A program made the translations under genes and the position numbers. From a bacterium D16-76 (GTDB lineage: Bacteria; Bacillota; Clostridia; Oscillospirales; Acutalibacteraceae), in assembly GCA_009917445.1 (NCBI GenBank), contig QZEE01000022.1:1-61683 (forward strand): a stretch of DNA of 61,683 nt, given 5' to 3'. Positions within the stretch are counted from its first letter, which is position 1. Every line of letters starts with the position of its first letter. Below, piece after piece: positions 3,294 through 35,403 of this stretch. Below the pieces are notes generated by a model. That model saw only the letters and a list, made by a program, of their open reading frames with translations, did not search any database and was not told the origin of the DNA.

Positions 3294-4451
3294 CTACCTT
3301 TCCTCTTTGTTGTTTTTAAAGTGATTCCCACGCTGTTTTGATTTTTGTGCTACTTTTGCCTGCTCTAAAAGATTGTCTATCTGCTTACTTCCAAATGCCT
3401 TGCGGAGCAGCTTATAACCTTTGTTTTCCGCACGGAGGTATTCATTTTCCCCTGCCAGTTTCTCATTGGTTTTCCTTAACCCCTCATTTTCACGGTGGAG
3501 GTTGCTGTTTGTGACGTTCAGCCGATAGTAGCTGTCCCACGCTTCATAACACCTTATAAGAGCTGTTTTAACAAGCGATTTCAGCTTTTGTACCAAAGGC
3601 TCTGCCACTTTATTTTTATATGATTTTGCAGACATGAACCCCTGCGGCTCTGGCAACTGGTACTCTGGAGAAGTGTCAAGCGCCTGTTCCAGAGTTTTTA
3701 GATTTTCCATACCTTTGTCGTAATTCTCCACCCTGTCCGACAATGCTTGAAATTCCTCTTTTTTCTCCGAAATCTGCCCCTCAAGCTGAACGACCTCTTT
3801 TTCCCTCTCCTGCTTTTTATAATCAAGGACAGACAAATGTTTTTCATGCGTGCCTTTATGCTCCCATTCAATGCCATGCCGCCCCATCACAGCGGCAAGG
3901 TTCTCTTTTTCGGACTGTACCCACTGGCTCCACTCCGTATCGCCACGGGAGCCGCCTTTGAATCCCTGCGCCGCTAACGCCTGTTTTAGAGATACCCTCG
4001 TATCAAGTCCACGCTTGCTGCCAGTCGTGAATGGGACAAAATCAATATGAAGATGTGGCGTTGCCTCATCCATATGGATATGAGCGGAAAATACATAGAG
4101 ATTATGGTTTCGTTCTTGGAATCCATGATAATATTCATCCAAAATCTGCCTTGCAAGCTGTCCGTTTTCACTTCCTGCGCCCATATTTTCCTTATCCCCA
4201 ATCTGCAAAATCAGCTCATGGAACGGCTTTTCCTGCTTTGAGTTCCGTATCTTCTCATAATAATCGGCAATGCGGCGGTCTGCCCTCGTCTGTTTTTCAT
4301 TATATCTTTGCAACGCTTCACCAAATAGCTTATGATACACTTTCTTTATATTCTCATTGCAGTAATCTACATTGAGATGTGACCGTTCTCCGTCAACATT
4401 CTCCGCTTTGAATTTACGGCTGTTATGGTTGACCGAGCCTTTCCCCACCAT
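3294..4451 (-). CDS. MobV-family (Mob_Pre) relaxase of element 1
   Basis: A 385-residue nicking relaxase. The N-terminal half carries HNSRKF (residues 9-14) and the metal-binding histidine cluster H-x-H-M-D-E-A-T-P-H-L-H (124-135), the Mob_Pre signature. From about residue 205 it is a long coiled coil, usual for MobV proteins. It should nick oriT and pilot the strand through a helper conjugation system. The ATG at 4451 is the only standard start; the element 2 homologue begins eight codons earlier at a TTG, where this copy has ATA, so the true start may be non-canonical. Confidence 0.88.
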   Translation of the reverse strand: MVGKGSVNHNSRKFKAENVDGERSHLNVDYCNENIKKVYHKLFGEALQRYNEKQTRADRRIADYYEKIRNSKQEKPFHELILQIGDKENMGAGSENGQLARQILDEYYHGFQERNHNLYVFSAHIHMDEATPHLHIDFVPFTTGSKRGLDTRVSLKQALAAQGFKGGSRGDTEWSQWVQSEKENLAAVMGRHGIEWEHKGTHEKHLSVLDYKKQEREKEVVQLEGQISEKKEEFQALSDRVENYDKGMENLKTLEQALDTSPEYQLPEPQGFMSAKSYKNKVAEPLVQKLKSLVKTALIRCYEAWDSYYRLNVTNSNLHRENEGLRKTNEKLAGENEYLRAENKGYKLLRKAFGSKQIDNLLEQAKVAQKSKQRGNHFKNNKEER

Positions 4452-33155: not shown

Positions 33156-33698
33156 TCACAACACCCCTGGCGGCCCCTGGGTGAACAGGGAAACCTGGCT
33201 TTCCTCTAAATCCCACCCCGCCAGGTTTATGACCTGCAGGCCCTGCTGCCTTGCGTAACGCACCGTGTAAGCCGTACCGCCCCGTGCCGTGTCCCGCAGG
33301 TAGCACAGGCAATAGGCGCTGTGGTCTACCAGGTAGCGGTTGCGCTGGAACATGCAGCCCCTTTGGTATACCTCTGCCGTATACAGGATTTCATCAGCCT
33401 GCCGCAGCAAGGTGCGGTACACAGCGGCCTCCCGCTGGGGCCAGCGGGACTCCTGCCCCATGCAGGGCAGCACCAGCACCAGCCGCAGCCCGGGGATTTC
33501 CTCCCGGGCCGCCACCACCTCTTGGGCAGCAAGGGTGTCAAATCCGACCGCGCCCCCGGCCAGGAAATCCCGCACCCCTTCATCCCCAGCCAGCCGGGCA
33601 ATCTCCCGGCGCAGCCGCTGCCGTACCGCCGGGATGCCCTGGGCAGGCACACGGCGGTGGCCAGTAAAACAGCAGCAGTACCCCCGTCCGGCCCCCAC
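33156..33698 (-). CDS. SLOG-domain protein (DUF1273/YpsA-like)
   Basis: A 180-residue Rossmann-like protein: CCFTGHRRVP at the N-terminus, LAGGAVGFDTLAAQEV, LVLVLPCMGQ, RNRYLVDHSAYCLCYL and GGTAYTVRYA. SLOG proteins bind nucleotide-derived ligands; no enzymatic role is established for this branch. The GTG at 33698 is chosen because GGAAGGGG precedes it and the GHR motif starts close to it; an open frame to 33863 runs through a terminator hairpin. Confidence 0.78.
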   Translation of the reverse strand: MGAGRGYCCCFTGHRRVPAQGIPAVRQRLRREIARLAGDEGVRDFLAGGAVGFDTLAAQEVVAAREEIPGLRLVLVLPCMGQESRWPQREAAVYRTLLRQADEILYTAEVYQRGCMFQRNRYLVDHSAYCLCYLRDTARGGTAYTVRYARQQGLQVINLAGWDLEESQVSLFTQGPPGVL

Positions 33699-33718
33699 AA
33701 GCGCCCCCCCTTCCGCAA

Positions 33719-33741
33719 ATAAAAAAGGGCTCCAAAGCCCC
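33719..33741 (-). terminator. Hairpin with T-tract just upstream of the SLOG gene
   Basis: On the minus strand GGGGCT-TTGG-AGCCC is followed by TTTTTTATT, ending 21 bp before the SLOG start. It could end the preceding transcript or attenuate SLOG expression. Confidence 0.7.
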
Positions 33742-33780
33742 TTCCGCAACAAAAAATAAAACAGCCCGCCCGACCGTAAT

Positions 33781-34015
33781 GTGCATCTCAATAACCTGCT
33801 ACAGAAAAAGCAGGTGGGTGCCCTCCCGCGTGGTTCTCGCTCCCTTCGTCCAGCGCCGGGCAAAGCCGGGCCGGGAGGTCTGCAGTCCGCAGGCGGAGCG
33901 GGGCTCCCAATATGAGGAGTGTAGGGTTATATGTGCACAGTCCGCGAATCGGGCAGGCTGCCGTTAACCGTAACAACCTGCCGCCGCGCCGGCCCCCAGG
34001 ACGGCACAGCGTTTT
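33781..34015. ncRNA. Candidate structured RNA between DUF1292 and SLOG genes
   Basis: No ORF is supported. Nested, co-linear complementary segments occur: GTGCA (33781-33785) with TGCAC (33934-33938), ATAACC (33791-33796) with GGTTAT (33925-33930), CTACA (33799-33803) with TGTAG (33920-33924). A second hairpin is GGCAGG (33952-33957) with CCTGCC (33977-33982). On the plus strand a T-rich tract (34011-34020) follows; on the minus strand T-rich tracts follow near 33750-33765. The strand and class are undecided. I found no match to RNase P, tmRNA or SRP core motifs. Confidence 0.4.
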
Positions 34016-34020
34016 ATTTT

Positions 34021-34320
34021 TTATTCCTCAGGCTCGTCAAAATAAGCCTCGTTAAAGCGTTCTTCAAAGATTTCCGCCAGCTTATCCAGCAGCTCGTCAT
34101 CGTCCACTTCCTGCAGCTGTTCCTCCCCATCTTCCTCAATCACCTCGAAGATGTAGTAGGTCTCTGCCTCTGAGGAAATATCCTCAGGATCCTGCTGGGT
34201 GGGCACCAGGGCCATATAGTGGCCATCGTCGTTGTCCAGCTCGTCAATAATCTCAAATTCGTGCTCCTGCCCCTCGTCATCCACCAGGGTGATCAGGTCG
34301 GCTTCAAAACTGTTATCCAT
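34021..34320 (-). CDS. DUF1292 acidic protein
   Basis: A 99-residue, very acidic protein (LITLVDDEGQEHEFEIIDEL, then TYYIFEVIEEDGEEQLQEVDDDELLDKLAEIFEERFN). DUF1292 proteins are conserved in Firmicutes; function unknown. It has its own promoter at 34371-34399. Confidence 0.88.
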   Translation of the reverse strand: MDNSFEADLITLVDDEGQEHEFEIIDELDNDDGHYMALVPTQQDPEDISSEAETYYIFEVIEEDGEEQLQEVDDDELLDKLAEIFEERFNEAYFDEPEE

Positions 34321-34399: not shown

Positions 34400-34562
34400 G
34401 AGTGAACCGGCAAAAACTACGGGACAGCTGCTTTTTTCTGAAACAGGGGGCGCCTCGCCCTTTTATCCTGCCCATTTGCCGCCGTTTCATGCCCGCAAGG
34501 CAAGCATATGCGGAGGACTTGTAAAAAATGCAAAATTTTTTCAAAAAAGTGTAAAAAACCTA

Positions 34563-34591
34563 TTGACAACCACAGCGTAGGGTGTTATAAT
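34563..34591 (+). promoter_or_regulatory. Perfect sigma-A promoter of the large RNA
   Basis: -35 TTGACA (34563-34568) and -10 TATAAT (34586-34591), exactly 17 bp apart. An A/T-rich run upstream resembles an UP element. No start codon with a coding frame follows. Confidence 0.88.
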
Positions 34592-34597
34592 ACAACC

Positions 34598-35375
34598 AGA
34601 GACAAGGAGATAAGAAAAACAAAGTCTCAACAGCGTATCCGCAAACCGGAAGTAGGTAAGGCGAAAGCCAAGCATGAAAACGGTGGGGAGTGAAAGAGAA
34701 AAGCTGCAAACCTGTTTAGCAAAAGCAAAGAAGTTATAAGCAACCAAAGTGTGCTGAACAGGAAGGGAAAGTAACTGCAAAAAGGCGGCGAAGGAGTTCC
34801 CAGAAAGACGGCTGAAAAAGGAAAATTGCGGGACGCAAAAATCATGAATGAAAGGCGGGTGAGTCCAATGGAGAGTGTAGAAGCACAACAGCATATCTGT
34901 GGGCTCGCGGCCCGCAGATAACTATAAAATCGGGAGAAAAGAGAAACGTGAAAGAGGGGAGCCCCTTTGGAACATTCTCAAAAAAGCAACAAGCCAATGA
35001 AGCACGGGACTGCTTGATAACGTCTGGTTACACGCTTCTTTAAAAGCGAAAAATTCACATATACAGAATAGACGGTAAAATTTAAGCGGCATAGATGTGC
35101 TGGAAAAAGAAAGAGGTACACGTCCAGTGTACAGTCTAAAAAATTGGCAGATTTAGCTGAATGGAAATCCATAAGCGGGAAGACTTGATAATGCAAGGAA
35201 AACAGCTAAATCAAGTAGAAAGCATAGGATAAAAGCAGCTAAATCAATCGCATGGGAAACTACAAACAGCAAACTCAATTGATATACATAGGCAATTAGT
35301 TCTGAATAGTTTCATGCAAGTATTAATCTCTCGTAATAAAGGGGACTTTCAAGGTGTACTTGGAAGCCCCCTTTT
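34598..35375 (+). ncRNA. Candidate large structured noncoding RNA, about 0.78 kb
   Basis: The locus runs from a consensus promoter to an intrinsic terminator with no credible ORF on either strand. The sense strand is purine- and A-rich, unlike the GC-rich neighbours. Predicted helices: GAGAC/GTCTC (34599-34603 with 34624-34628), GGC-GAAA-GCC, an 11-bp helix CCTGTTTAGCA/TGCTGAACAGG (34711-34721 with 34752-34762, one G-U pair), TTGCG-GGA-CGCAA, another 11-bp helix 34894-34904 with 34910-34920 (one G-T), and GTACAC/GTGTAC (35116-35132). A-rich loops and a GNRA tetraloop suggest tertiary contacts. Size and style resemble the large ornate RNAs (ROOL, GOLLD, OLE); I cannot assign it to one. Confidence 0.7.
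35338..35375 (+). terminator. Terminator of the large RNA
   Basis: AAAGGGG-CTT-CAAG pairs with CTTG-AAG-CCCCCTTT and runs into TTTTT. It is a textbook intrinsic terminator. Confidence 0.92.
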
Positions 35376-35403
35376 TGATGTGCTTTTTCTATATTTTGCC
35401 GCC

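Follow-up and report, generated by a model that had tools for sequence, protein, structure and literature searches.

A large structured RNA gene beside 6S RNA in Oscillospirales, with a putative translation initiation site at its conserved core

What is made from a stretch of chromosome that has a consensus promoter and a strong terminator and seems to hold no gene? The question is raised by positions 34598 to 35375 on the forward strand of the window, by which we mean the whole 61,683-nucleotide stretch of contig QZEE01000022.1 from bacterium D16-76 (Acutalibacteraceae, Oscillospirales) that was analyzed here. A preliminary description of this DNA had read the locus as an ORF-free candidate gene for a large structured RNA on the chromosome, either of a known class in a new context or of a new class. 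Comparison with relatives supports a large structured chromosomal RNA gene, through synteny, the promoter and terminator, and covarying helices, and it places a short ORF within the best-conserved part of the RNA.

The transcription unit and its chromosomal setting

The promoter, TTGACA-17-TATAAT at 34563 to 34591 on the forward strand, is as perfect as had been claimed, with 12 of 12 consensus matches and a TG ahead of the −10 element, and relatives have a near-consensus promoter at the equivalent position. An intrinsic terminator of the textbook kind, a hairpin followed by a T run, lies at 35341 to 35376 on the same strand and closes the unit of about 0.78 kb already described. In the 16 members of the genus that were measured, the span from promoter to terminator is 428 to 1069 nt, and an automatic scan of 52 named loci gave transcripts of 425 to 2119 nt for 48 of them, the longest of which may have missed the terminator. 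The purine-rich composition was likewise borne out: the purine fraction of the RNA is 0.648, against 0.476 and 0.469 in the flanks, and among 610 segments of the same size, scored for purine or pyrimidine, only one reaches 0.648, and that one, with its start at 34501, lies partly on the RNA itself. The predicted fold has a minimum free energy of −210.8 kcal/mol (z = −6.09), and 0 of 20 shuffled sequences folded as well. The local helices reported earlier are present, namely a hairpin with a GNRA loop (GGCGAAAGCC) and two 11-bp helices with one G-U pair each, 34711-34721 with 34752-34762 and 34894-34904 with 34910-34920. The first of these, a predicted hairpin spanning 34711 to 34762 (forward strand, one U-G pair), has no aligned counterpart in the shorter relatives of the genus alignment. 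A predicted helix at the 5′ end (GAGAC...GUCUC, 34598 to 34628, forward strand) has a similar element in part of that alignment.

The setting between a DUF1292 gene and an HD-domain gene also stands. The DUF1292 gene (PF06949, 1.8e-16) runs divergently at 34021 to 34320 on the reverse strand, and the HD gene (PF01966, 1.6e-4, just over the cut-off) is the next gene on the same strand as the RNA. On the far side of DUF1292 lies a gene that the preliminary description omitted, that for 6S RNA (RF00013, 57.5 bits; 33759 to 33962, reverse strand). DUF1292 and 6S RNA are conserved neighbours. In 15 of 17 fetched loci, DUF1292 is divergent and adjacent with 6S RNA on its far side; the two exceptions are a locus whose contig ends first (L045) and one that matched in the promoter area only and was dropped (L049). 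Rfam placed 6S RNA over its cut-off in 19 of 20 homologous loci, and among 52 examined named loci with the RNA it was detected alongside, within the locus, in 51. Downstream of the RNA, an HD homologue is present in 13 of the 17 fetched loci (16 of which come from the genus) but in only 9 of the 52 named loci. In the latter set the first ORF of 120 codons or more past the RNA differs from locus to locus in size and strand, and we found no conserved gene downstream of the RNA. The six neighbouring proteins examined belong to ordinary chromosomal families. In the window, the 6S RNA gene, directly downstream of DUF1292, overlaps the upstream end of a YpsA-like ORF frame (33156-33863).

A blastn search of 28 other genomes of the genus found the RNA sequence in 16, and a single short match came from outside the genus. 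R1, a covariance model built on the central block, added two more members of the genus (G019 and G021) and reached other genera and one further family of the order; outside the order, the hits of a class-wide search were all weak, the best having an E value of 7.5e-6. Because weak R1 hits, where inspected, mostly resembled ordinary gene starts, only loci with a DUF1292 ORF were used. Such an ORF is present in 73 of the 128 loci examined with R1, the other 55 having none in the available stretch, and the motif was recognized by pattern in 68 distinct loci of the 73, including two whose ORFs have only 4 and 2 codons (L147 and L151). One locus to which a wrong upstream site had been assigned (L159) was kept in later sets.

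An independent set consisted of 80 named DUF1292 loci fetched by the protein alone, 78 of which were testable, two being too short upstream. Promoter and core motif were found in 54 of the 78; in the other 24, one of them from Acutalibacter, the RNA was not found by these patterns. Among the loci without the RNA, L181 is cut short by the contig edge, and in several the position is taken up by long ORFs. Three loci whose DUF1292 proteins are 78-84% identical to that of the window (L184, L188 and L189) have long ORFs where the RNA would be expected, which suggests that it has been lost or has moved in some close relatives. On these comparisons, two families of the order have kept the putative RNA gene next to DUF1292 and 6S RNA. 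The statistics given here ignore kinship among the sequences, except for the pairs used for peptide substitutions and the collapsed minigene counts.

The conserved core of the transcript

The claim that the unit holds no credible ORF did not survive. Within the best-conserved block of the RNA, a stretch resembling GAAAGG(N)GGUGAGUCC precedes a start codon (AUG, GUG or UUG) that opens a short ORF. The window's version has an extended Shine-Dalgarno sequence that we call site 1, GAAAGGCGGGUGAGUCC (34850 to 34866, forward strand), with gapped complementarity to the 16S 3′ tail GGAUCACCUCCUUUCU, and an ORF of 17 codons, MESVEAQQHICGLAARR-stop (34868 to 34921, forward strand), whose start, frame, position and length are conserved in relatives and whose peptide is conserved weakly.

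The sequence of the free tail was taken from the organism's own genome and from those of relatives. Duplexes of site 1 with the tail have a mean of −19.3 kcal/mol (range, −22.0 to −15.3) over 52 sites. The 52 named loci concerned, from which the counts of 6S RNA, HD homologues and UGAGUCC copies also come, were restricted to ORFs of 15 to 33 residues with E or Q at residues 2 to 8. For comparison, 252 control ORF starts have a median of −9.65 kcal/mol, and none of them reaches the site-1 median, the two best being −19.1 and −19.0; these controls are ORFs of at least 200 codons from both strands of the window and of 26 of the 52 loci, each scored by the best of up to six starts, and not all of them are real genes. 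Beyond site 1, the 52 transcripts are no more complementary to 16S than shuffled sequence. Sites at −16 kcal/mol number 67, against 17 to 25 after shuffling, and the 52 site-1 sites make up most of the 67. The idea that the motif copies are antisense to 16S is supported for site 1 and was rejected for the remaining copies.

The length of the ORF is kept more closely than its product. Among 54 named loci, in which site 1 starts with ATG, GTG or TTG, and with no filter on length, a frame-0 stop falls at 15 to 33 codons in 52, versus 22 and 18 for the other two frames; the exceptions are L196, with two codons, and L237, with no stop before the contig ends. In 33 pairs drawn from sequences with ORFs of 10 to 40 residues, each sequence being used once, the ORF has 67 synonymous and 134 nonsynonymous substitutions, against 45.4 and 155.6 expected from a calculation without correction for transition bias. 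Substitutions per site amount to 0.129 in the ORF and 0.169 in the stretch downstream. Gaps that are not multiples of three account for 63 of 74 in the ORF and 225 of 288 in the downstream control, a like pattern, so that there is no excess of in-frame gaps in the ORF. An E-x-Q recurs near the N terminus of the peptides in the sets to which no residue filter was applied. Constraint on the peptide appears to be weak.

The start region has a potential partner inside the ORF. In the window, GUGAGUCCA (34859-34867) can pair with UGGGCUCGC (34900-34908), the two together spanning 34859 to 34908 on the forward strand, and an 11-bp hairpin with the loop UCGCG occupies the 3′ end of the ORF (34894 to 34920, forward strand). 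The partner segment overlaps the upper stem of the hairpin, so that the two would compete or form a shorter pseudoknot. The hairpin covaries in the genus alignment, and its stems are of quite different sequence among relatives. Considered together in that alignment, three helices (the start-region pairing, a start hairpin and the ORF hairpin) have 90.5% of their cells paired and show 8 two-sided changes; their covariation score was reached by none of 500 shuffles, and slid controls dropped to 24-42% paired.

In a wider set of 85 sequences with ORFs of 10 to 40 residues, pairing of the start region (−9 to +3) with the segment +12 to +72 beat shuffles at p ≤ 0.05 in 53, with examples such as GUGAGUCC/GGACUCAC, GCGAGUCC/GGGCUCGC, UGCAGUCC/GGGCUGCG and GGUCCGAUG/UGUCGGACC. 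When the partner was sought only in the loop of the best hairpin, this level was reached in 17 of the 85, indicating that in many sequences the partner is something other than a simple loop. The base at −1 changes with its partner: with A at −1 the partner is U in 31 of 57 sequences, versus 1 of 19 with G, and with G at −1 it is C in 12 of 19, versus 14 of 57 with A, patterns that were picked after the sequences had been seen and that carry no correction for related sequences. The same contrast at base −1 separates similar sequences, L208 and L237 from L223 and L235. Since docking of a 30S subunit at site 1 and the closed fold would both use GUGAGUCC, each should exclude the other, and we infer that the start-region pairing acts as a gate on the 30S site.

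Very short ORFs and further elements

In the window, a second site (site 2; 35102 to 35156, forward strand) consists of a GA-rich, Shine-Dalgarno-like stretch, a CC-A-GUG start and an ORF of nine codons. In 13 of the 19 genus members examined, an AUG at the equivalent site begins an ORF of no more than four codons. The window's own copy has no such AUG minigene, and a near relative (L175) has a GUG start like the window's, with 10 codons. The minigene feature being absent from this copy, the reading of the window rests on site 1.

We scanned 82 distinct transcripts (74,703 bases, site 1 excluded) for minigenes of the form SD-CCN-ATG. There are 95 such sites; 20 dinucleotide shuffles gave 17.2 on average (maximum, 26), and the antisense strand has 13. 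Of the 95, 70 open ORFs of at most four codons, for which the shuffles gave 3.45 (maximum, 8) and the antisense strand none. In 51 of the 95 sites codon 3 (offset +6) is the stop; offsets +7 and +8 have 0 and 5 stops, and out of frame no offset up to +24 has more than the 16 counted at +1. These two-codon sites have 13 different second codons (UAC 20, CAG 6, AGA 6 and others) and use all three stops, which argues that it is the stop that is kept and not a fixed RNA sequence. After similar sites had been collapsed, 41 of 76 were two-codon sites. ORFs of no more than four codons occur in 47 of the 82 transcripts and two-codon ORFs in 36; L229 has the most of the former, five. A minigene of this form with at most four codons is missing from 35 of the 82. 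When sites were defined by UCC before the start, 49 of 65 stopped within four codons, versus 91 of 456 other Shine-Dalgarno sites. The Shine-Dalgarno sequences of the minigenes average −11.1 kcal/mol and are not exceptional. In the distant locus L196, read as the reverse complement of its first 5000 bases, a series of SD-UCC-AUG minigenes (AUG-AGA-UGA, AUG-AUC-AUG-UAA and AUG-AAC-UGA) follows a TTGACA...TATAAT promoter, and the first site opens two codons, not about 18.

Other parts of the RNA are structured or repeated. Domain A, CCGGAAGUAG ... GAAAACGGUGGGGAG (34646 to 34690, forward strand), is near-invariant in the genus alignment and has an internal loop, CCGGAAGUAG / GAAAACGG, which we take to resemble the loop-E type. 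Its string GGAAGUA was found in the genus loci and in one other (L074) among 68 scanned. Domain C (35002 to 35100, forward strand) combines a long-range GCAC...GUGC helix, an inner CGUCU/AGACG helix and a CGCUU/AAGCG hairpin. In an alignment of 12 of the 17 genus sequences, the outer helix is 100% paired with 3 two-sided pairs and the inner helix has 60% of its cells paired. The covariation score of the domain was reached by 0 of 500 shuffles, its number of two-sided pairs by 93 of 500 and its pair types by 446 of 500, so that two of the five measures are no better than shuffles.

The sequence UGAGUCC with Shine-Dalgarno-like purines ahead of it occurs in 54 further copies in 32 of the 52 named transcripts (L193-L249), with a consensus near UGAGUCCAAAGUACA and a repeated motif form AAAGGNNUGAGUCCAAAGUACA. 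Eleven of these copies have an AUG, and 43 have no start codon (AAG in 20, AAA in 21 and others in 2). Ribosome binding does not explain the copies without a start; the repeats could be a protein-binding element or a degenerate minigene element.

Proposed role and alternatives

We propose that the locus represents a new class of large structured RNA whose conserved core is a translation initiation site, and that the RNA captures initiating ribosomes, a reading to which we give an even chance of being right. A sigma-70-type promoter would give rise to a transcript of 0.43-1.07 kb, as measured in 16 members of the genus, and to a longer one in some relatives. The extended Shine-Dalgarno sequence would pair with most of the free 16S 3′ tail and so recruit a 30S subunit to the start codon, and this start would open an ORF of about 16 to 32 codons. 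Alternatively, the start region would pair with the segment inside the ORF, and docking and the closed fold, being mutually exclusive, would make the site a gated one. At the extra Shine-Dalgarno sites of 47 of the 82 transcripts, a ribosome would start on an ORF of four codons or fewer and reach its stop almost immediately. By capturing initiating ribosomes in these ways, the RNA may be a sink that takes up free 30S subunits or a sensor that responds to them. Comparison of the relatives establishes the conservation, the synteny, the position and length of the ORF, the complementarity, the covariation and the stop at codon 3, and from these we infer transcription, 30S binding, gating and a ribosome-capture function. 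The features that are kept are those of ribosome recruitment and the products would be tiny or nil, which suggests that initiation itself is what the RNA is made for.

6S RNA is a non-coding RNA that sequesters RNA polymerase. The position beside its gene suggests a matching role for ribosomes; by Rfam the large RNA shows no sequence kinship to its neighbour, and its target would be the ribosome. A more specific form of the proposal, which we advance only tentatively, is that the RNA is the translational counterpart of 6S RNA. It would mimic initiation regions, much as 6S RNA mimics a promoter; the gated 30S site, on being opened through strand invasion by the 16S tail, would read the level of free 30S subunits, the minigenes would cycle initiating ribosomes and yield no product, and the whole would buffer or sense ribosome availability.

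In a rather unlikely alternative, the fold or a bound protein does the work, as in OLE and ROOL, and ribosomes only coat the RNA against nucleases and Rho. The folding z of −6.1, the covarying long-range helix of domain C, the conserved domain A and the 43 of 54 UGAGUCC copies without a start codon all suit it, and the available part of PMC8708949 has one case in which Shine-Dalgarno binding ahead of a mini-ORF stabilizes a transcript. The GGAAGUA of domain A, however, is confined to the genus and L074 among the 68 loci, whereas the initiation site is present in all of them by the way they were selected, and compensatory pairing of the start region would not be needed for pure protection. If instead the product mattered, the locus would encode a dual-function RNA or a small-protein mRNA with a peptide of 16-32 residues, and one would look for the conserved start codon, frame and ORF length, the recurrent E-x-Q and the mild synonymous excess that are seen. 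We nevertheless think this improbable, given the weak constraint on amino acids, the many pairs with indels that shift the frame, and the two-codon ORFs of 36 of the 82 transcripts, which are too short for a protein. A cis-acting leader of the HD gene, with the ORF as leader peptide, would fit the window, where HD comes next on the same strand, and the 13 of 17 loci with an HD homologue; upstream ORFs in structured leaders are described in the available parts of PMC8632094 and PMC11109978. Against it are the strong terminator after the RNA, the variable next ORF and the small number of named loci with an HD homologue (9 of 52); having found no conserved gene downstream, we rejected this very improbable reading.

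Size, promoter, terminator and an elaborate predicted fold would also be shared by a divergent member of a known large class (ROOL, GOLLD, OLE or raiA) or by tmRNA, which we find scarcely credible. A search of 4227 Rfam families gave no family over its cut-off in the RNA region, and 20 homologous loci gave only 6S RNA. At E ≤ 10 the region has four matches far below their cut-offs (RT-6, TUG1_2, Betaproteobacteria-1 and BTnc005; E 0.92-9.6), and at E ≤ 5 five homologue loci have, beside 6S RNA, nine sub-cut-off matches (E 0.0033-2.8), none of them to a large RNA class; all of these were set aside as chance. tmRNA (RF00023) is not among the matches of the region even at E ≤ 10, and raiA/ModT (RF03072) is over the gathering cut-off in 0 of 29 genus genomes, 20 of which give weak matches up to E 10. 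The kinship to ROOL, GOLLD, OLE or raiA raised in the preliminary description thus found no match in the region or its homologues: a new class is supported, a known one in a new context is not. The far-below-cut-off match to BTnc005 was seen twice, in the window at 34816-34924 and in L194 at 3728-3830, probably by chance.

ROOL and GOLLD are often associated with phages or prophages. Here the neighbours are chromosomal, and 50,697 phage records gave no match to the RNA. Like ROOL, GOLLD, OLE and raiA/ModT, the RNA appears to be long, structured, transcribed on its own and free of long ORFs; unlike them, it has a putative translation initiation core and a chromosomal site beside 6S RNA. ROOL, GOLLD and OLE are homo-oligomers according to the available part of PMC12286853, and raiA/ModT is treated in that of PMC11706538.

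The bar genes of lambda are two-codon minigenes, and relatives of the window share with such genes a Shine-Dalgarno sequence followed by AUG-X-stop (51 of 95 sites and 36 of 82 transcripts, the window's copy not among them). RNAIII is a dual-function RNA, structured, about 0.5 kb or more long and with a short ORF inside; the RNA here differs from this type in its weakly conserved peptide and in the several mini-ORFs of many relatives. Entrapment by S15 is one case in which a pseudoknot governs 30S access. Another is given in the available part of PMC11228461, where a pseudoknot decides 30S use of the structured ribosome-binding site of the timP and tisB mRNAs. The likeness lies in an RNA pairing that may decide 30S access, here proposed from sequence comparison; in timP and tisB, however, the pairing lies upstream and serves the ORF of a functional protein, whereas here it includes the start region and the ORF is tiny and weakly conserved. 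As far as the available part of PMC8708949 goes, two-codon minigenes such as axe-txe mg2 and that of the LEE1 leader sit in leaders of, or within, protein genes, unlike the present ones, which would lie in a stand-alone terminated RNA with a longer, presumably gated ORF. In the open-licence literature we found no class with a gated extended Shine-Dalgarno sequence and repeated two-codon ORFs in a natural, independently transcribed RNA, nor any relevant account of this RNA or of RNAs that capture ribosomes, and "Ruminococc" and "Oscillospir" occur 0 times in the available parts of the bacterial structured-RNA surveys PMC8632094 and PMC11109978.

Should the RNA capture ribosomes, translation capacity would have one more regulator, encoded next to a regulator of transcription capacity, 6S RNA, in a group of gut bacteria many of which are known only from metagenome assemblies. 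When transcripts are called "non-coding" from the length of their ORFs, RNAs whose purpose may lie in initiation itself can be overlooked. The carriers include the strain-named Neglectibacter timonensis, Caproiciproducens galactitolivorans and Anaeromassilibacillus senegalensis, which makes direct testing possible.
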